From positions 1 to 29,215 of the IMG/VR virus record IMGVR_UViG_3300005099_000038: a DNA stretch of 29,215 nucleotides. One strand, written 5' to 3'. The number at the start of each line of letters is the position of its first letter. Position 1 is the stretch's first letter. The notes under the pieces were generated by a model, which was not told the origin of the DNA, made no database searches, and saw only the letters and a program-made list of their open reading frames with translations. Positions 2,174 to 23,511 of the stretch are shown here, one piece after another. The DNA is from a virus. The translations under genes were made by a program, and so were the position numbers.

Positions 2174-3749
2174 TTAGCTCTCTATATCTTTCAATGACAG
2201 GCTGAGTTGCTCTTCTTATTCCTCTTGCTCTAATTGGAGGAATGAGACCGTGATATTCAAGAACTTTCTCATTAAATTCTTCTATGTCCTCTAACACTTC
2301 TCTTAAATCCTCGTAATTATCAGCACGACGATACTTTTCATAAAGTTTCTTTCTCCATTCATTGAAGGCTCTTTCTATCCTCATACCAAAATATCTATCA
2401 TCCTGAATCTTGGCAAGACTTACTGGTCTAAATCCAAGAGACCTTAATACGATTTCAAGTCCAGTCAACTTATAAGGTTCTCCTGTCTCCGCTTCAATGA
2501 TTGGTTTACCGTATCTCGTCCTTAATCCTTCTGTAGCCAGTAATCCAGATTGGAAGAACATAGATAATCCCATAGGAAGTAAGTAAGATAAACCAGCTAC
2601 TATTTCTTCATCTGCCACACCCCTTGGCCCTGTTAATAAGTCTCTCAATCCTTCTAATAACTCTCTTCCTCCTATTAAGCCACGCTGATATACTCCTTTA
2701 TAAACTCCTAAGAATATATCTGCTAATGCGTCAAATGATGTGCCTTTAGGAATTGGAGCTTCAACTTTTAAAGAAGAAGATAAATCAGCAAGTCCTACGG
2801 CACAAGGAACTCCCCTTGTAACAAGGTCAGCAACAGATTCTCCTCCCAACTTACTGAGAGTATTATAAACCATCAATCTCAGTGGTTTACCAGACAATCT
2901 CTCAAAGACATCTGCTATATCGTCAAAGAAAGGCATTGCCTTCAATCCGCCAAGAATTCCAAACATAAGGAAGGATAAAGCTAACTTTTCAAATTCTCTC
3001 TTTCCTACCCAGTCAACATACAAGCCAAATAGATTAGCAATAAATCCTTTCAGAGTAATAGGTAAGGACATTATAGCTCCAAATGGAGTTCCTGGATTAG
3101 CCCAGTAAGGACGATTAGCTCTGGAATAATCCATAAAAGTTCTTTCTACTATATGTCTTGCTACTTCGCTCACAACATTTACATTTACATCTCTTGGAAG
3201 TAAGTGTTTAGAAATCGCTATAGTGGCTATCAATCTACCTAAAGATTCAGCATACTTGAACATAAACATAGATGAGCCAAAGACATAATGCATAGTTTTA
3301 CCAAACAGATTCATTCCTTCTTCTCTTAACATTTGATAGAAAGAACTTTCTATCTTTCCATGATTTATCAAATCTTGAATTACTCTTAAGGTATCTACAT
3401 CAATATCGGAAGCTCCATCATGAATTGCTTTTTCTATATCCACCTCTGATAAATCTCTTTTAATCCATCCTTTTTCCAGATACATCTTCAAAGTTCCATG
3501 AGCATCACGGAAAGTTTCTTTAACAGCTCTTGGGAGTGCCTTGAAATACTTTGTAGGTCTGATTCTATATTCCATTCTCCCAGCGATTTCAAGCTTAGGT
3601 AGAAATCTTGTTAACTGATTTATCAATTCTGCTGGACTGCGAGCAGTAGAGGACATAGCAACAACTTGACAAAATTCAGGAAGGAATGTAGTAACAAGGT
3701 TTGTATAGTTAAGGAAAGCAGAAGATACACGGTAGCCAAGATAATACAT
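2151..3749 (-). CDS. C-terminal part of the giant internal virion protein (separate frame)
   Basis: This 532-residue frame is probably not an independent gene. The ATG at 3749 has no good ribosome binding site. The preceding frame ends in an unnatural Cys/Trp-rich tail, whereas this frame begins YYLGYRVSSAFLNYTNL, which reads as the natural continuation. It contains several hydrophobic helices (around residues 225-280) and ends in a charged helical region after LEIVLRSLGFRP, a C-terminal feature I associate with large podoviral internal proteins. The likely role is an ejection-apparatus protein released into the host with the DNA. If expressed alone it would be a separate virion protein. See the finding on the frameshift. 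Confidence 0.6.
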   Translation of the reverse strand: MYYLGYRVSSAFLNYTNLVTTFLPEFCQVVAMSSTARSPAELINQLTRFLPKLEIAGRMEYRIRPTKYFKALPRAVKETFRDAHGTLKMYLEKGWIKRDLSEVDIEKAIHDGASDIDVDTLRVIQDLINHGKIESSFYQMLREEGMNLFGKTMHYVFGSSMFMFKYAESLGRLIATIAISKHLLPRDVNVNVVSEVARHIVERTFMDYSRANRPYWANPGTPFGAIMSLPITLKGFIANLFGLYVDWVGKREFEKLALSFLMFGILGGLKAMPFFDDIADVFERLSGKPLRLMVYNTLSKLGGESVADLVTRGVPCAVGLADLSSSLKVEAPIPKGTSFDALADIFLGVYKGVYQRGLIGGRELLEGLRDLLTGPRGVADEEIVAGLSYLLPMGLSMFFQSGLLATEGLRTRYGKPIIEAETGEPYKLTGLEIVLRSLGFRPVSLAKIQDDRYFGMRIERAFNEWRKKLYEKYRRADNYEDLREVLEDIEEFNEKVLEYHGLIPPIRARGIRRATQPVIERYRELTKIPSLF

Positions 3750-6700
3750 AGCAGGCAGTTAAAGCTCTTACTTTATAAACAAATGAGGCAAGAGGAACGT
3801 GGGGAGCAGTAGTAGCTTCAACATACTTATCTATAAGAGATTTAAGTTCTGGGTCTTCAATGAATAAATCTTTAAGCTGTGGACTTTCGTAGGCTTCTAA
3901 TACTCTATTCAAGAAAAATTTATTTACAAGGCTTCCAGTCATTCTGATATGATATTCTTTTGTAACATCAATGACATCTTTTCTATATCCTTCAATAACT
4001 CTTTGAGAGAACTCTGCTGGTAACAATCTCCTATGGAGTCTCCTCGCAAGAGCATAAGCAACATCTGCATACATAGAATAAAGAGCTTGTGGGAAGACAT
4101 CTCTTAATAACTTCTGTGCCTCTGGGTCATCAGTTCTCAAAGCAAGACTTCTGATGAAATCAAATGCTTCATAAGGAGACATTTTATCGATAGTCCTCTC
4201 AGCTTTCGGAGGCTTCTTGCCAACCATAATGATATAATCTGGAGTTTTACCTTTCTGTATAGTTTCTCCAATAATAAAATCAGACAGAGATTTTTCACTT
4301 CTATGCCAGTCTTCAGTTCTAAATTCCATCACTTCCTTCTCTTTCTCAAGTCCTTCCTTAACAGCTTTATAAATCTTATAAATCTTTAAAAGCTCATTCT
4401 TCTGTGCAAAATCGCTCTTTCTCCTATCAGTATCCCAATAACCAATCTCTACATATTTCTGTCTTCCTCTCTTGTCCGTATATTTCACAAATAGTCTGAC
4501 CTCATAATCTCCATTCTGCCTTACGAGAGGAGTATAAAAACTTTCATCAAGTCCTTTAAGAGTGTAGGTAGCTTTAACAAGATTGTTGGTCATGAAGGCT
4601 TCAATCGTCCTAAAAACTTCCTGATGCTCTTTACTCAAGTCAGATAAATCCCCTTCCTTCTTATATTTCTCTGGGTCTCCTCCAAACATTTTCAAAATTT
4701 CATCACGGTATTGATACCAAAGCTTCTCTGGCTCGTGTCTCATATCATTAATAGCAACTCTTCTAAGTCCTCTCCTACCAGCAGTTTTAGTTCTCGTTAT
4801 TTCCAATTCTATCATCTCTTTTATTTCATAATCATAAAGCCTAAACAATTTGTCGTGAGCTTCAGTTCTTATGTGAGTTAACATAGTAAGAAGCCTGTCC
4901 TTGACATCTCCAGAGATGTAATTCATCTTCTCGAATGTATTCAGAAGTCCTCTCAACTTAATCCATCCAATATCAAATATAGCAGAAAAAGTCATAATGG
5001 CTTCTATGTCATAATAATTCTTTGCCTTATCAACAATATCTTTCAATGTAGAAATGTCGCTTGCAGATAAATCAGGATACATTTCTCTGACTTCTTTTTC
5101 AAACTCAAGAGGATACCTTCCTTCCGCATTGTAATACCAGATGAGCTTCTGAGCTATATCATGAAGCTCAGGATTCTCTTTTTTGAGATTCTCAAAAGAA
5201 TTAAGAAATTCCTGTAAAGGTCTCATGGTCGTCTCATTCACTCTGCCAACACTTTCAGAATAATAGTTATGGAAGACAGTTAGAATATCATGATATTTTG
5301 GATAAATGGCTACATTATAGAACTTACGGAAGATTGGATTTTTCTCCTTACCAAAATACTTTCTACGGAATTCTCTTTCCTCTTTGGAGACAGCTTCTAC
5401 CTTACCTCCAAATGTTCTTTGTAGCCATTCTCTCAATCTGTAAGGAGCATTCTCTCTGAAGAATTCTACAAATCTATCCTGTGCTTCACTGAGTTTGGTT
5501 CTGAAAGCGATTTCAAATTCCTCATTATTAAAATCGTCTCTTATTCTTTTAGCTATATCCCAGACGTCAGTGAAATAAGCAAGAGGAATTTCCTCTGGAG
5601 ATTTATATTCTCTGGCAAGTCTTCCAGCATAAATTTTATCAAATATATCATAAGCACTAACAAAGCCCAATCCTTTAAGAGCATTCCTTATCCTGTCAAT
5701 AATAGAAATCATTTTGTCAAAAATTCTCTTGAGAAAAGAAGGAGGCTGATATTTATGAAAGATATAATTTCCAAATGCCTCAGCTATTTCTTCTGTATTC
5801 TTGAATTTTGAATAAAGAAGTCTTCTGTCTGTCTCAGGAAGGAGAGGCTCAATCAAGTGATATAATTCGTGTCCAAATGTGATAAGACCATTGGATTTTT
5901 CCCCGAAGACAATTCCTATATATCTTCTATCTCCAAGCCTCAGAGCAAATCCAGAGAAAGGAACTCCAAGAGCTTTCCTCATATAAGCTACAACTGGACT
6001 ATATTCATTTCCTACAATAATACCAACCTCTTCTCCGAGAGCTTTGGCAACGACACTTTTCATAAATTGGAACATCTTTACTGGTTCGCTGAGAATAAGT
6101 GGGTCTTTCTTAGCCATCTCAATAGTTCTATAGTAAGCATCTTCACTTCTTAAGCCTTCAATCAGCTTGGAATATGCCTCATCAATTTGTCTATTTACAT
6201 CACTTGCCTCAATCATTTCAAGAAGTCTTACCTTTACATATTCAGCAGGATTTCTGAGAAAGTAAGAAACATCTCTATGCTGGGAAAGCTCCTCCTTAGT
6301 CTTAATGATATTTCTATCAAAATTTTCTGCAAAAGTATTTAAAGGCTCATCAGATAAGTCAAGAATCTTAGGAAATTTTTCCTTATCGGTAATCTTTACA
6401 ACTGCCTTTATGTAAGTATCCCAGAGCCTCTTAATTGGAGATTTTCCTCTCAAAGTTGGAAGTCCAATTGCCTCAGGCTCTAAAATCTCCAGGTCTTCTT
6501 TACCCTCCAAGAAATTCCTGAAATTCTCTGCGTCCACAATAACAAATTTTCTTTTCTCAGGAACAACCAAGTCAAGCCTATCAGTAAAAAATCGTCTAAT
6601 AGGAATGTCCTCTTTAAGAGTATCAGACAAGAAATCTTTGAGTTTCAGAAGTCTTGCCTCTCCAGTTTCTCCAAAGCTCAATATAACATAACCGTTAGGT

Positions 6701-19302: not shown

Positions 19303-20307
19303 TTATTCATTTTTTTCTTTCTTGATTACAGTAGCAACCACACTATCTCCTAAATCTATGTTATTTCTATCAGCCCCAATTAAAAACCTGTTCCCATCAG
19401 AAACATTTACTTTACCAGAAATAAATTCTCCTCTGGCTTTCATGTCAAGTCTATCCTTACTGAATAAAACAACTTCTGCTCCTTTTGCCATAACTAACCC
19501 CCTTCTGCATAACCAAATAGCATTTTTATTTCCAAGCACAACTCCGCTTCCTTTAAGGCTTCCCACATCATATTCTACAAATCTCAAATTAAAAGGCTCT
19601 CCTTCAAGAGGAAAGCCCAAATATGTCTTGCTATCTGTAGAAATTATAATTGCCTCTTCGGTAGATAAGACAATATTTATCTCTTCTGGAAACTCAAAAT
19701 AGAAATAAGGAAGAACTAAGTCATAATAAAGAGCCTCCGTAAACCATAACTGCTTGCCTTTTGAACCAAATATTCTTCCTTTGAAAAAGCACAGATTTTC
19801 AACACGAGGCATAGGAATTGCTTCAGAAAGAGCATACTCAAAGCTATCCTTTGCAGTCTCAAAGGTAAAAGATTTATCAAATTTCCATTCTCTAACAGTC
19901 TCATTGCTTATAGAATAAACACCATTCCAGAACCTATTTGATATGTAAACATTGTCGCCAACTTTGACAAAATAAAATCTTGCATAAGGGCTGTCTGTCT
20001 TGGCAATCTGCTTCAGAGATTCATCTGGCAAAGAAAATTTGTATAGATAATCTGAACCGTTCTGATAAGAAAAAAGCAAATAGTTATTTCTATCAATCTT
20101 AAAAGGAGAGTGTGCAAAAGGCAAATCAACTATCTTCTTCAGCTTATAACGAGGTCTCAAAGAGCCATCTGGATAAATATCCATATTCAGAATTAGATAA
20201 GGGTAGCGGGCATCAGACTCAAGTCCTTTATTCTTCATTCCACGAAAAGAATTGAAAATTATATCTTTATAGGTTTGAGATGCACTGATTTTCTTTCTTC
20301 TTGCCAT
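19303..20307 (-). CDS. Tail hub / DNA stabilisation protein, P22 gp10-like
   Basis: This 334-residue protein starts at a TAATG overlap with the adaptor gene. After a basic start it is mostly beta strands with propeller-like repeats (NYLLFSYQNGSDYLYKF, VYISNRFWNGVYSI, GRIFGSKGKQLWFTEAL, AIIISTDSKTYLGF, AIWLCRRGLVMAKG). The 'GRIFG..g..LWFTEa' and 'w....GlvmakGae..lfs' segments are typical of podoviral tail stabilisation proteins related to P22 gp10, which cap the adaptor ring and hold the DNA in. The position after the adaptor gene fits. It is shorter than P22 gp10. Confidence 0.55.
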   Translation of the reverse strand: MARRKKISASQTYKDIIFNSFRGMKNKGLESDARYPYLILNMDIYPDGSLRPRYKLKKIVDLPFAHSPFKIDRNNYLLFSYQNGSDYLYKFSLPDESLKQIAKTDSPYARFYFVKVGDNVYISNRFWNGVYSISNETVREWKFDKSFTFETAKDSFEYALSEAIPMPRVENLCFFKGRIFGSKGKQLWFTEALYYDLVLPYFYFEFPEEINIVLSTEEAIIISTDSKTYLGFPLEGEPFNLRFVEYDVGSLKGSGVVLGNKNAIWLCRRGLVMAKGAEVVLFSKDRLDMKARGEFISGKVNVSDGNRFLIGADRNNIDLGDSVVATVIKKEKNE

Positions 20308-20921
20308 TACAACAGACCTCTATGAATAGCAGAAGGTCTTGGGACATCTTTATCTCTAACATGACGGGCTTTAAAGAAAGATACAAGACTAATAAAAGTG
20401 CTATAATTATATTGAGCCAGTTCCAGATTAAAAGTTTCACTATCAGCTTTCATATAAGCTCTCCATAAAACTCCATGCTCAAGAGCAGGAAGTAATTTTC
20501 TTGGTAAAGTAATCTCATCATCAAAAGTCAAGTCTCTTTCCTTTCCCACATAATAAAGACAAATGTCATAAGCCTTATCTGGGACAGGAGCAAGATGAAT
20601 GTAATTATCATAGATGCAATAATATCGAGGTTTTCCTCCTTGAAGAAATAAATTTTCTATCTCTCCCATAGATAGCTTGTAAATCATACTATTTTCACAA
20701 TAGACTGAAAATTCCCTATCAAAATCATCTGGAAGAGCATAACTTGAGGTATCTTTTTGGGTCTGGAAAGAATGCTTCTTCTCCAATAAAGGAATTTCGG
20801 TATAAATATAGCTAAGAACATCATTCAAGTAAGTAAGAAGCTCATCATCTCTCCATAAAAGAGGGTCGTTTGTGTCCGCCAGTTTGTCTCTTATATTATT
20901 CAAAAATTCCGAGACAGTCAT
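20307..20921 (-). CDS. Head-tail adaptor protein (P22 gp4-like)
   Basis: This 204-residue protein has MTVSEFLNNIRDKLADTNDP then LWRDDELLTYLNDVLSYIYT, the 'W.ddeLl.yLNd.l..i' signature of phage adaptor proteins that bind under the portal. The rest (SSYALPDDF, KPRYYCIYDNYIHLAPVP) also fits. It starts with an ATGA overlap with speD. AAGGAGG lies directly before the start, and an exact 14-bp motif copy (20932-20945) abuts that ribosome binding site. The gp10-like hub gene follows immediately. Adaptor, then hub, then fibre follows the assembly order of a P22-type tail. Confidence 0.65.
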   Translation of the reverse strand: MTVSEFLNNIRDKLADTNDPLLWRDDELLTYLNDVLSYIYTEIPLLEKKHSFQTQKDTSSYALPDDFDREFSVYCENSMIYKLSMGEIENLFLQGGKPRYYCIYDNYIHLAPVPDKAYDICLYYVGKERDLTFDDEITLPRKLLPALEHGVLWRAYMKADSETFNLELAQYNYSTFISLVSFFKARHVRDKDVPRPSAIHRGLL

Positions 20922-21310
20922 GTTACCTCCTTGAAATCGCTTTCATTCCAAGACAAATTTTTATAATCCACTCTCACATCTTTGCCAAAAAATACTTTTA
21001 CCACTTCCAAAGCTTTCTTCTCATCAAAAGATTTACAGGAAGAGATTTCAAGCCGAGCATAATTTTCTTCTGGCCAAGTATGTATGTAAATATGACTCTC
21101 AACAAGAACCATTCCAGCAGATAATCCATAACCTCCTCTCAAAATTCCTTTTATTGGAGTAGGGAAGTGAGCAACCTGTAAAGTGTGAAGAATAGGTGTC
21201 ATATCTATAAATTCAACAGCACGCACCAAAAACAATCTGATTATCTCTTCCGAAGACAATAATTCTGAAGGAGCATCGTAAATATTTACTAAAAGGGTCT
21301 GCCCCTTCAT
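20918..21310 (-). CDS. speD: S-adenosylmethionine decarboxylase-like pyruvoyl enzyme (SpeD/SpeH)
   Basis: This 130-residue protein is similar in length to the bacterial class 1B AdoMet decarboxylase. The autoprocessing site is intact: Glu71-Ser72-His73 in LVESHIYIHTWPE, where Ser72 would become the pyruvoyl group. His77 lies five residues after it and Cys92 twenty residues after it, the same spacing as Ser63/His68/Cys83 of the Thermotoga maritima enzyme. The enzyme makes decarboxylated AdoMet for spermidine synthesis, but members of this family have also evolved into ornithine or arginine decarboxylases, so the substrate cannot be read from sequence alone. No spermidine synthase gene is in the window. 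It follows three basic proteins and precedes the tail adaptor. The ATG has GAGGAG upstream. Confidence 0.85.
   Translation of the reverse strand: MKGQTLLVNIYDAPSELLSSEEIIRLFLVRAVEFIDMTPILHTLQVAHFPTPIKGILRGGYGLSAGMVLVESHIYIHTWPEENYARLEISSCKSFDEKKALEVVKVFFGKDVRVDYKNLSWNESDFKEVT
20932..20945 (+). repeat. Dispersed 14-bp near-palindrome, copy 5 (exact)
   Basis: An exact copy in the last codons of speD (E-S-D-F). On the transcribed strand it is followed at once by AGGAGG, the adaptor gene's ribosome binding site, with ten bases between motif and ATG. Confidence 0.85.
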
Positions 21311-21315
21311 TCATA

Positions 21316-21585
21316 CTATCTCCTCTTTCTTTTTATTGTCTTAACTTTTGCTCTCTTTGCCAATCTTCTTCCTTTTGCAGTCTTTAAAGACCTCAATAAG
21401 GAAATAGCTTTAGTTCTTCCTCCTCTCGGCCCCTTCTTCCTCGTAATACAAACTAAAACTTTCCTCCCTGGCTTACCAGGAACAGGAACAACCCTATAAG
21501 CAACACATCCTCTCTTACTACCTAATTTCTCCCTAACATATTTGCCAGTTTTATACCTATAAATAGTCCCTTTTCTAACTGCCAC
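21316..21585 (-). CDS. Small, extremely basic protein, possible DNA-condensing virion protein
   Basis: This 89-residue protein has about one third Lys/Arg and only one acidic residue (Glu19). It starts at GTG (21585) after AAAGGAAAG, overlapping the previous gene's end by 11 bases. The N-terminal half has beta-like spacing (GTIYRYKTGKYV, CVAYRVVPVPGKPGRKVLVC). The C-terminal half is a protamine-like run of basic helices (LRSLKTAKGRRLAKRAKVKT). It is third in a row of three basic genes leading into speD. The role is probably nucleic-acid binding inside the head, but no family is recognised. Confidence 0.6.
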   Translation of the reverse strand: MAVRKGTIYRYKTGKYVREKLGSKRGCVAYRVVPVPGKPGRKVLVCITRKKGPRGGRTKAISLLRSLKTAKGRRLAKRAKVKTIKRKRR

Positions 21586-21814
21586 TTGTCTTTCCTTTCT
21601 TTTTTCTCTTACTTCTTGAAATTTTCATTCTTCTTTCTAAAAGTTTTCCCCAACGAGTAAGGTCTTGAGTTCTTGGTCTAAGTAAACCTACCGCTTGTAA
21701 AGCTGTAGTAGCTACTCTAAATGCCTCCCTTTCACTCAAACCTCTATGACTCATTAATGCTCCGACAGTCTTCATAAGGAGATATGGCTTATCAACATCT
21801 CTCTTTTTTGCCAT
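21575..21814 (-). CDS. Small basic protein with a charged tail
   Basis: This 79-residue protein starts at an ATG after AGGAGGGAGG. The middle is helical (KPYLLMKTVGALMSHRGLSE, EAFRVATTALQAVGLL). The C-terminus is a dense Lys/Arg block (LERRMKISRSKRKKKGK). It is the second of three consecutive basic genes in the late operon, between the lysozyme and speD genes. It likely binds DNA or the capsid interior. No family recognised. Confidence 0.55.
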   Translation of the reverse strand: MAKKRDVDKPYLLMKTVGALMSHRGLSEREAFRVATTALQAVGLLRPRTQDLTRWGKLLERRMKISRSKRKKKGKTSGS

Positions 21815-21823
21815 ACCTCCCTC

Positions 21824-22057
21824 CTATTTCCCTTTCCTCCTTCTGGCAATCTTTTTCACATTACGAGCGAAAACAGCTCTTTTTAAAAGAGTAGTATTGC
21901 CTGTCCTACGAGCCTGAGATATGGCACTGTTAATACAAGCCTGAGTTACTCCTCCAAATCCGTGAGCCTTGCACCATCTTGTAAATGCTCCTACAGTCCC
22001 TTTTCTCTCCATCCTTGCCCTTGCCTTCTGTAACCATTTTTTAGTTCTTCTTGCCAT
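21824..22057 (-). CDS. Small basic protein, capsid-associated type
   Basis: This 77-residue protein starts MARRTKKWLQKARARM. The ATG at 22057 is preceded by GGGAGG; an ATG at 22072 overlaps that ribosome binding site and is rejected. There is one acidic residue (Glu17) against more than 20 Lys/Arg. The sequence 'kWlqKA...KGtvGAFTRWCKAHGFGGVTQ' resembles small phage proteins containing a 'W(l/i)qkA...pGaf...' motif, found in many head gene clusters and thought to be virion-associated. It is the first of three basic genes before speD. Confidence 0.55.
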   Translation of the reverse strand: MARRTKKWLQKARARMERKGTVGAFTRWCKAHGFGGVTQACINSAISQARRTGNTTLLKRAVFARNVKKIARRRKGK

Positions 22058-22078: not shown

Positions 22079-22696
22079 TTACCAGAAGACCCATCTCTTG
22101 GTCTCCCATTCCTTCATTCTTATTCCTATCCGATAAATCTTCCTACTATAATTATAATTTATGTCGCAATCAGTCCTATATTGCCTACACTTACCCTTCA
22201 CATGCCAAACACATATTCTTCTTGGATGCTTCAAACATTGATGATAGCCCTGCTTCCAAGAACAGCAATTCTTAGTCTCCTTTAAAACCTTCCAGCAGGA
22301 ACGGTTATAACATTGATAAGTAATAAAGAGCTTTTTGCATTTATTAATCTTATGATATTTATGAAGAATGTAAGCCTGAGCCAAAAAATAATCAAAACTA
22401 TCCTTCGTCTTCCAGTTAGGAAATAACCTTGAAAGTTCTTTATCCCAGAAATAAGGAGTTATCTGAGCATAACCAAGACTGCCCCAACCATCAAGAGAAG
22501 TTCTCCACCTGCAACCGCTTTCAACTCTTAATTGAGCAACAGAAAACCAATAAGGATAGTCTATGCCAAAGAACCACTCATGAGCCTTCCTTACCTTCCC
22601 TACAAATCTCTCACAATCTCCAGCTATACTAAGACAAGGCAAAAATAAGGGCAGAACCAATAAGCAAGATGAAATAATAATCCTTTTTATCCTCAT
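22079..22696 (-). CDS. Exported lytic transglycosylase (SLT-type endolysin)
   Basis: This 205-residue protein has an N-terminal signal sequence (MRIKRIIISSCLLVLPLFLP, cleavage likely after SIAG). An SLT-like lysozyme fold follows, with catalytic Glu59 in LRVESGC and GSLGYAQITPYFW (72-84) as the substrate-binding motif. It would cut the glycan strands of peptidoglycan during lysis. The C-terminal half is unusually rich in Cys (about ten, for example CKKLFITYQCYNRSC and CCSWKQGYHQC), suggesting disulfide stabilisation outside the cytoplasm. The gene overlaps the holin-like gene by 68 bases. Because it has its own export signal, lysis may depend on a pinholin-like or Sec-released mechanism. Confidence 0.75.
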   Translation of the reverse strand: MRIKRIIISSCLLVLPLFLPCLSIAGDCERFVGKVRKAHEWFFGIDYPYWFSVAQLRVESGCRWRTSLDGWGSLGYAQITPYFWDKELSRLFPNWKTKDSFDYFLAQAYILHKYHKINKCKKLFITYQCYNRSCWKVLKETKNCCSWKQGYHQCLKHPRRICVWHVKGKCRQYRTDCDINYNYSRKIYRIGIRMKEWETKRWVFW

Positions 22697-22898
22697 TTGT
22701 CCACTCTATCCTTCCAAGTCTTATTCTCCTAAATAGGTAGGAGAGGAAATACCACCAGACTACTAAAAAAGTCTTTTTTATGATTACTTGGCACGGAGCT
22801 GTAAAGTCAAAAACCCAACCTGTCAAAAATAGAACCAAACAAATTACAATTAACACTATAGACAAAGACCATTGTTTTAGATAATTCCCTACTGACAT
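22629..22898 (-). CDS. Holin-like membrane protein
   Basis: This 89-residue protein has three hydrophobic segments: about 12-30 (SLSIVLIVICLVLFLTGWV), 42-56 (KTFLVVWWYFLSYLF) and 74-88 (YYFILLIGSALIFAL). Charged loops separate them (RRIRLGRIEWTNEDKKD). Size and topology match a class I holin, which forms the lesion in the inner membrane that times lysis. It starts after GGAGG and sits between the o-spanin and endolysin genes, overlapping both. The call rests on topology and context, as holins share little sequence. Confidence 0.6.
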   Translation of the reverse strand: MSVGNYLKQWSLSIVLIVICLVLFLTGWVFDFTAPCQVIIKKTFLVVWWYFLSYLFRRIRLGRIEWTNEDKKDYYFILLIGSALIFALS

Positions 22899-23134
22899 AC
22901 TTTTATTGCCTCCCTCAACATCTCATTTTCTTTCTCAAGTTTAAGATAATTATTTAAAATAATTTGCAGTTTCTCTGGATAAGTTGCATTCTCAGGAATA
23001 GGTTGTAGATTGGCTCTCGGAACTTCAGGAATCTTACATTTTACATAAATAGGCTTTTCTACATATTCAACTCGTGGTCTTACAAAGCCACATCCAACCA
23101 AAAATAGAATTAAAATCAAAAATAAAAACCTCAT
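22889..23134 (-). CDS. o-spanin (Rz1-like outer-membrane lipoprotein)
   Basis: This 81-residue protein has a classic lipoprotein signal: MRFLFLILILFLVGCGF, with the LVGC lipobox ending at Cys15. A Pro-rich middle (CKIPEVPRANLQPIPENATY) and a C-terminal helix follow. It starts with an ATGA overlap with the i-spanin gene. Rz1-type lipoproteins sit in the inner leaflet of the outer membrane and join the i-spanin to fuse both membranes in the last step of lysis. The motif VEKPIYVKC is shared with the i-spanin partner (IEKPIYIPAKDC). Confidence 0.7.
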   Translation of the reverse strand: MRFLFLILILFLVGCGFVRPRVEYVEKPIYVKCKIPEVPRANLQPIPENATYPEKLQIILNNYLKLEKENEMLREAIKVCQ

Positions 23135-23511
23135 TTTCTCTTTTCCTTTTGTATTTTTATAAACTCATCAATCATGATTGCCATCTTTTGGCAGTCTTTA
23201 GCAGGAATATAGATAGGCTTCTCTATTATCTTCGGGATTTCAATTACTTTAGGAGGCTGATTCGCTTTCTTGAGAAGCTCACTAATCTTCTTTTCATATC
23301 TTTCCTGTTGAACTTTCATATATTCCGCCAATTCCGCATTAGCTTTCTGACAAGCCTGAAGCTGTTTTTCTAAATGGAAAACTCTTTGCTTCATTTGCAT
23401 GTTATCTTTGCGAAGATGATTGAAGTAGAAAAGAAAAGACACGATTGCCACGCCAACCAGACCACAAAGAAGCCACTTATAAATATCTTTATACAATAAG
23501 AACTGCCACAT
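23131..23511 (-). CDS. i-spanin (Rz-like inner-membrane coiled-coil protein)
   Basis: This 126-residue protein has one N-terminal membrane anchor (about 13-30, WLLCGLVGVAIVSFLFYF). A periplasmic coiled coil follows (about 34-85, RVFHLEKQLQACQKANAELA and onward), then a short C-terminal region with IEKPIYIPAKDC. This is the standard layout of Rz-type spanins. The next gene, overlapping by ATGA, encodes the matching lipoprotein. Together they indicate a host with an outer membrane. Confidence 0.7.
   Translation of the reverse strand: MWQFLLYKDIYKWLLCGLVGVAIVSFLFYFNHLRKDNMQMKQRVFHLEKQLQACQKANAELAEYMKVQQERYEKKISELLKKANQPPKVIEIPKIIEKPIYIPAKDCQKMAIMIDEFIKIQKEKRK

Follow-up and report, generated by a model that had tools for sequence, protein, structure and literature searches.

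Three strongly basic proteins and a SpeD homologue encoded as a conserved block in tailed phages: a possible late DNA-handling cassette with a candidate selenocysteine position

What could a homologue of S-adenosylmethionine decarboxylase (AdoMetDC) be doing directly behind three small, very basic proteins among the late genes of a virus? The question is raised by the IMG/VR virus record IMGVR_UViG_3300005099_000038, which was analysed over its whole length (positions 1 to 29,215) and is called the window here. A preliminary description had noted three consecutive small basic genes followed at once by a pyruvoyl-dependent enzyme of the SpeD family, and had proposed that both condense the genome in the head. 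The lengths and positions of the three genes (B77, B79 and B89) proved correct (Table 1), and two of them, B77 and B89, do contain a single acidic residue each. The location in a late structural operon was also borne out, as the block lies between lysis genes and the genes for the adaptor and the Hc3-like protein. All of these genes are on the minus strand and follow each other in the order putative spanin pair, holin, endolysin, B77, B79, B89, SpeD, SU10-type adaptor and Hc3-like protein. B77 and B79 are separated by 9 nt, B79 and B89 overlap by 11 nt, B89 and SpeD are 5 nt apart, and the 3' end of SpeD overlaps the adaptor gene by 4 nt.

Table 1. Coordinates of the four-gene block, its neighbours and selected codons in the window
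Feature	Position	Strand	Remark
B77, 77 aa, net charge +22	21824..22057	-	relatives in many phages
B79, 79 aa, net charge +16	21575..21814	-	seen solely within the four-gene block
B89, 89 aa, GTG start, net charge +32	21316..21585	-	new small beta family (predicted)
B89 Cys27 codon (TGT)	21505..21507	-	TGA in homologue L024
B89 Cys46 codon (TGT)	21448..21450	-	TGA in homologue L023
SpeD, class 1b S-adenosylmethionine decarboxylase homologue, 130 aa	20918..21310	-	PF02675, PDB 1tlu match
SpeD Ser72, predicted pyruvoyl-forming residue (T. maritima Ser63)	21095..21097	-	1tlu alignment
Putative endolysin	22079..22696	-	from sequence and position; 79-80% identical in L003/L004
Putative holin	22629..22898	-	from sequence and position
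Two small membrane/lipoprotein genes, putative spanin pair	22889..23511	-	from sequence and position
SU10-type adaptor protein	20307..20921	-	PF24175 5.5e-24
Head-closure Hc3-like protein	19303..20307	-	phrog_8040 3e-8

The ratio of basic to acidic residues (K+R/D+E) is 23/1 in B77, 22/6 in B79 and 33/1 in B89, with pI values of 12.0, 11.6 and 12.0, respectively. These are the three most basic proteins among the ~36 genes of the window, and the probability that three named genes out of this number would be placed side by side at random is ~0.005. All three have basic C-terminal tails. Compared with their relatives, B77, B79, B89 and SpeD are all under purifying selection (dN/dS ~0.1-0.28). The assignment of the fourth gene to the pyruvoyl-dependent SpeD family was upheld by a match to Pfam family PF02675 (AdoMet_dc; E 6e-20, 72 bits, cut-off 25) and by an alignment to the AdoMetDC of T. 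maritima (1tlu), in which the motifs ESHIYIH and SSC match catalytic sites. Ser72, His77 and Cys92 of the window protein correspond to S63, H68 and C83 of T. maritima, the catalytic residues of class 1b SpeD as named in PMC10407285. In fold family, size and catalytic Ser/His/Cys it thus resembles the class 1b enzymes, including that of Thermus phage phiYS40, which is likewise encoded by a phage of a thermophile. It differs from them in belonging to a clade of its own and in sharing one operon with three basic proteins, and its activity is predicted. The enzyme of phage YS40 is a proven AdoMetDC that restores spermidine in E. coli (PMC9992855).

Conserved synteny of speD with the basic genes, the absence of which the preliminary description had named as a refutation, was found in related sequences. 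B77, B79, B89 and SpeD occur in the same order in four genomes: the window, two nearly identical IMG/VR contigs (G001 with locus L003 and G002 with locus L004), and L109, a 3.5-kb scaffold of a Thermodesulfobacteriota metagenome-assembled genome (MAG) from Guaymas. In the window, the block is preceded by the endolysin gene and followed by the adaptor gene, whereas in L003 and L004 it comes after the gene of a large protein, a relative of window g532, and stands ahead of putative spanin, holin and endolysin genes. Block and lysis module are thus swapped in order, and the block ends with exactly these four genes. Since the flanks differ between the window and its relatives, the four genes behave like a sharply bounded cassette. 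Identities between the window and L003 are 85% for B89, 81% for B79, ~65% for B77 and 57-60% for SpeD, and the block and the lysis genes together range from 55 to 88% between the window and G001. For the capsid protein of the window, neither G001 nor G002 gave a match; phage G015 did, at 61-66%. As the block and the lysis genes are shared with G001 but the capsid is not, they have moved together, apart from the head genes.

The SpeD clade of the window has five members among the sequences found (window, G001, G002, L109 and G015). All five genomes also encode B77 and B89, with adjacency in four; in G015, B77 and B89 lie side by side and SpeD is 6.7 kb away. SpeD went undetected in nine further records that contain B89 (eight contigs and the Thermus phage phiLo) and in a much larger number that contain B77; several of these records are fragments. 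One contig with B89 (G022) carries a more distant SpeD. Two contigs (L024 and L093) have B89 and B77 together, downstream of lysis-type genes, and in L091, B89 follows genes that resemble those of the adaptor and the Hc3-like protein by position and length. This distribution suggests that the two basic genes are the older pair and that SpeD was probably added to them in one lineage. A general association of SpeD with basic genes across viruses was rejected: a scan of 42 viral SpeD loci revealed only weakly basic neighbours, none comparable to those in the window, which confines the link to the window's SpeD clade. Basic genes also cluster in other combinations: directly ahead of B89, L022 (2548-2748) and L091 (5457-5869) contain more small basic genes, with 24 K+R/0 D+E, 19/3 and 23/2.

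The L109 scaffold ends (3128-3372) next to tRNA-Arg(ACG) and the first part of a gene that adjoins the same tRNA in two MAG relatives, which have no phage genes at this junction. L109 is therefore very probably the end of a prophage in a Thermodesulfobacteriota lineage, and we treat this lineage as a lead to the host of the window virus itself. The suggestion of a link to high temperature fits these relatives, one of which comes from the Guaymas MAG. The MAG of the host lineage encodes a spermidine synthase, and its relatives encode SpeD, usually in two copies, so that the phage enzyme could feed a complete host polyamine pathway. A role of phage SpeD as a substitute for a missing host enzyme is not supported; the sole SpeD of the (partial) MAG is degenerate, but the relatives have intact copies. 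This chromosomal SpeD of the MAG (L110:1474-1911, minus strand, contig C35 of G023) lies beside the spermidine synthase gene, carries alanine where the pyruvoyl serine would be, and is without the catalytic cysteine. In relative L145, the copy retains the serine, but the cysteine is missing there too. Such a protein may be a non-catalytic SpeD partner.

Our main reading, to which we give a probability of about 0.4, is that the basic proteins and SpeD form a joint late DNA-handling cassette in tailed phages of thermophilic Thermodesulfobacteriota. The four genes would be expressed late, together with lysis and head-completion proteins. B77, B79 and B89, small, strongly cationic and probably nucleic-acid-binding, would most likely bind the phage DNA, or the head interior, during assembly, so that charge is screened; they may then be present in the virion. 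The co-translated SpeD would decarboxylate S-adenosylmethionine late in infection and, with the host spermidine synthase, increase spermidine-type polyamines that serve the same neutralisation. Putrescine and spermidine neutralise packaged DNA in some phages (PMC3281028).

A joint role is favoured by the order of the block, kept in four genomes despite differing flanks, by the presence of B77 and B89 in all five genomes of the SpeD clade, by the low dN/dS values together with the retained catalytic residues, and by the spermidine synthase of the host-lineage MAG. SpeD also lies beside or near head genes in other phages of thermophiles: two genes ahead of the portal in Thermus phage YS40, and in Moorella phage MTATph1 (L087:4989-5345) between a pair of genes whose annotation is "major head protein". 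Several points count against it. Most of the contigs in which B77 and B89 were found show no SpeD, and many of these contigs are fragments; SpeD of G015 is set apart, and other viral SpeD loci lack comparably basic neighbours. Host relatives already encode SpeD, and charge neutralisation does not explain a cysteine pair in B89 (see below). Moreover, according to PMC3281028, evidence for a large contribution of basic proteins to the neutralisation of phage DNA is lacking, and dense packing leaves little room. The condensing role proposed in the preliminary description is supported in part; joint DNA compaction is plausible but unproven.

Basic proteins of this kind have a parallel in Chlorella virus PBCV-1, where several basic DNA-binding virion proteins are proposed to neutralise packaged DNA (PMC3281028). 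PBCV-1 differs in being a eukaryotic virus with an internal membrane, and B77, B79 and B89 are known here from their genes. Phage SpeD has been described before, but a fixed pairing with three basic genes has not, as far as our searches show. If the cassette acts as proposed, a tailed phage would neutralise its DNA with dedicated basic proteins and a polyamine enzyme of its own, contrary to the view in PMC3281028 that phages do without basic proteins for this purpose, and with a tie to life at high temperature.

The main rival is a general late supply of polyamines. SpeD would then be an ordinary auxiliary metabolic gene that maintains a high level of spermidine-type polyamines in the infected cell for translation and replication; it would sit with the basic proteins in the late operon and have a task of its own. 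Phage AdoMetDCs are common as metabolic genes (PMC9992855), and both the distance of SpeD from B77-B89 in G015 and the records of B89 and B77 without SpeD agree with such a role. It does not account well for the exact four-gene unit in four genomes with different neighbours, and expression alongside lysis and head genes would be late for an aid to translation. We regard this explanation as rather unlikely, if the strongest of the alternatives.

The structures predicted for the basic proteins bear on a second alternative. AlphaFold2, run with 13 homologues, gave a fairly confident model of B89 (pLDDT 84, pTM 0.69), a small beta protein with one helix; PDB searches with the sequence profile and with Foldseek yielded no match. 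Cys27 and Cys46 lie on two successive predicted strands, which probably form one hairpin in the model, and within the family they are either both there or both missing. Conserved positions include non-basic residues. Among annotated phages, a homologue was found in Thermus phage phiLo alone, a weak one: gene 86, a hypothetical protein, which retains both cysteines and is probably identical to the best BFVD fold match of B89 (96 aa). SpeD was not found in phiLo, in which it differs from the window. B77 is also predicted to be folded (pLDDT 82), as a four-helix protein in the model, with a pair of cysteines (Cys29/Cys41) between predicted helices 2 and 3 that is retained or missing as a pair across the alignment of its family. 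Direct PHROG and Foldseek searches with B77 gave no match, but it matches a protein of L093 (E 4e-6) that in turn matches phrog_20603, a phage family without known function. For B79, no homologues were found in annotated phages, and an ANTAR domain hit (E 0.0018) was rejected, being under the Pfam cut-off and 18 residues long. The libraries searched contain no named family to which B89 or B79 could be assigned. All three proteins are small and very basic like protamines, but B89 and B77 are predicted to be folded, unlike the unstructured, low-complexity Arg/Lys-rich chains of protamines. The paired cysteines of B89, in place of which TGA is sometimes found, suggest redox or disulfide chemistry that a simple protamine would not need. 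B89 is thus not a simple protamine.

B89 and B77 could instead be proteins of assembly with redox or disulfide stabilisation, either minor proteins of the head or neck or assembly chaperones, with their charge used for local DNA or RNA contacts and not for bulk compaction. The paired behaviour of the cysteines in both families, TGA at one B89 cysteine in two lineages, the modelled beta fold with its conserved non-basic residues and the adaptor/Hc3-like neighbours in L091 all agree with this. Net charges of +16 to +32 within 77-89 residues, together with the basic tails, seem excessive for local contacts, and we consider this explanation unlikely.

While the window has TGT at both cysteine positions of B89 and no TGA, two homologues contain an in-frame TGA: L023 (IMGVR_UViG_3300005095_000123, region 6112-6114) at the position of Cys46 and L024 (IMGVR_UViG_3300028417_000008, region 6055-6057) at that of Cys27, with TGT kept for the partner cysteine in each case. 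Read through the TGA, the two proteins are 70-76% identical to window B89 over the whole protein, and selection downstream of the TGA is as strong as upstream, so that a TGA at a conserved cysteine is combined with conserved coding sequence beyond it, as in selenoproteins. Reassignment of UGA was rejected because TGA terminates ordinary genes in both contigs, where B89 is the only one of the aligned proteins with an in-frame stop. The hairpins that follow the UGA were compared with synonymous shuffles and are not significant (p 0.35 in L023, p 0.13 in L024). Under the bSECIS rules of PMC13188914, the L023 hairpin conforms (6-bp stem, GUG loop, ~22 nt from the UGA) yet has the p value of 0.35, and that of L024 has too long a loop; a SECIS element as proof of selenocysteine was therefore rejected. 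A search for tRNA-Sec in the contigs found none. Of the relatives of the MAG that carries L109, 20/20 encode SelB, which was not detected in the MAG itself, a partial one.

The placement of the TGA, the conserved downstream sequence and SelB in the relatives of the L109 host fit selenocysteine, and we regard B89 of L023 and L024 as a candidate phage selenoprotein. The TGA codons might still stem from separate nonsense mutations or from errors in the sequence, though two hits on two of ~85 codons would then be a coincidence. Bacterial selenoproteins with Cys/Sec interchange likewise have TGA at a conserved cysteine; the B89 homologues differ from them in being viral and without a significant SECIS. 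Viruses and prophages go unmentioned in a 2026 review of the prokaryotic selenoproteome (PMC13188914), and the TGA/Cys interchange gives a candidate selenocysteine in a protein of tailed phages that can be tested directly. On balance we lean towards B89 as the founder of a family of late, cationic phage proteins in whose redox-active cysteine pair either member may be replaced by selenocysteine through the host machinery, within a cassette for DNA handling and polyamine supply.

As to the reaction of SpeD, phage homologues neofunctionalised as arginine or ornithine decarboxylases exist (PMC9992855, PMC10407285), and the window enzyme could be one of these, producing agmatine or putrescine. It is 53-60% identical to members of its own clade and merely 31-44% to the other SpeDs compared, partly over short stretches. 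It retains HTWPE, however, the proline of which is probably the marker that separates AdoMetDC from arginine decarboxylase in PMC10407285. For ornithine decarboxylases derived from SpeD, that paper gives Gln, Thr, Phe and Tyr as diagnostic residues. Such a change of substrate is quite improbable in our view; it would be compatible with compaction as well as with a general supply. That SpeD depletes S-adenosylmethionine to blunt methylation-dependent host defence, like T3 SAMase, is very improbable: its enzyme family does consume this compound, but phage anti-restriction genes act early, and the late-gene placement comes too late to shield incoming DNA.

The Rfam search of the window gave no match. 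On its plus strand, 953-1285 matches a PDDEXK nuclease weakly, and 1727-2173 has a weak match to the terminase small subunit.
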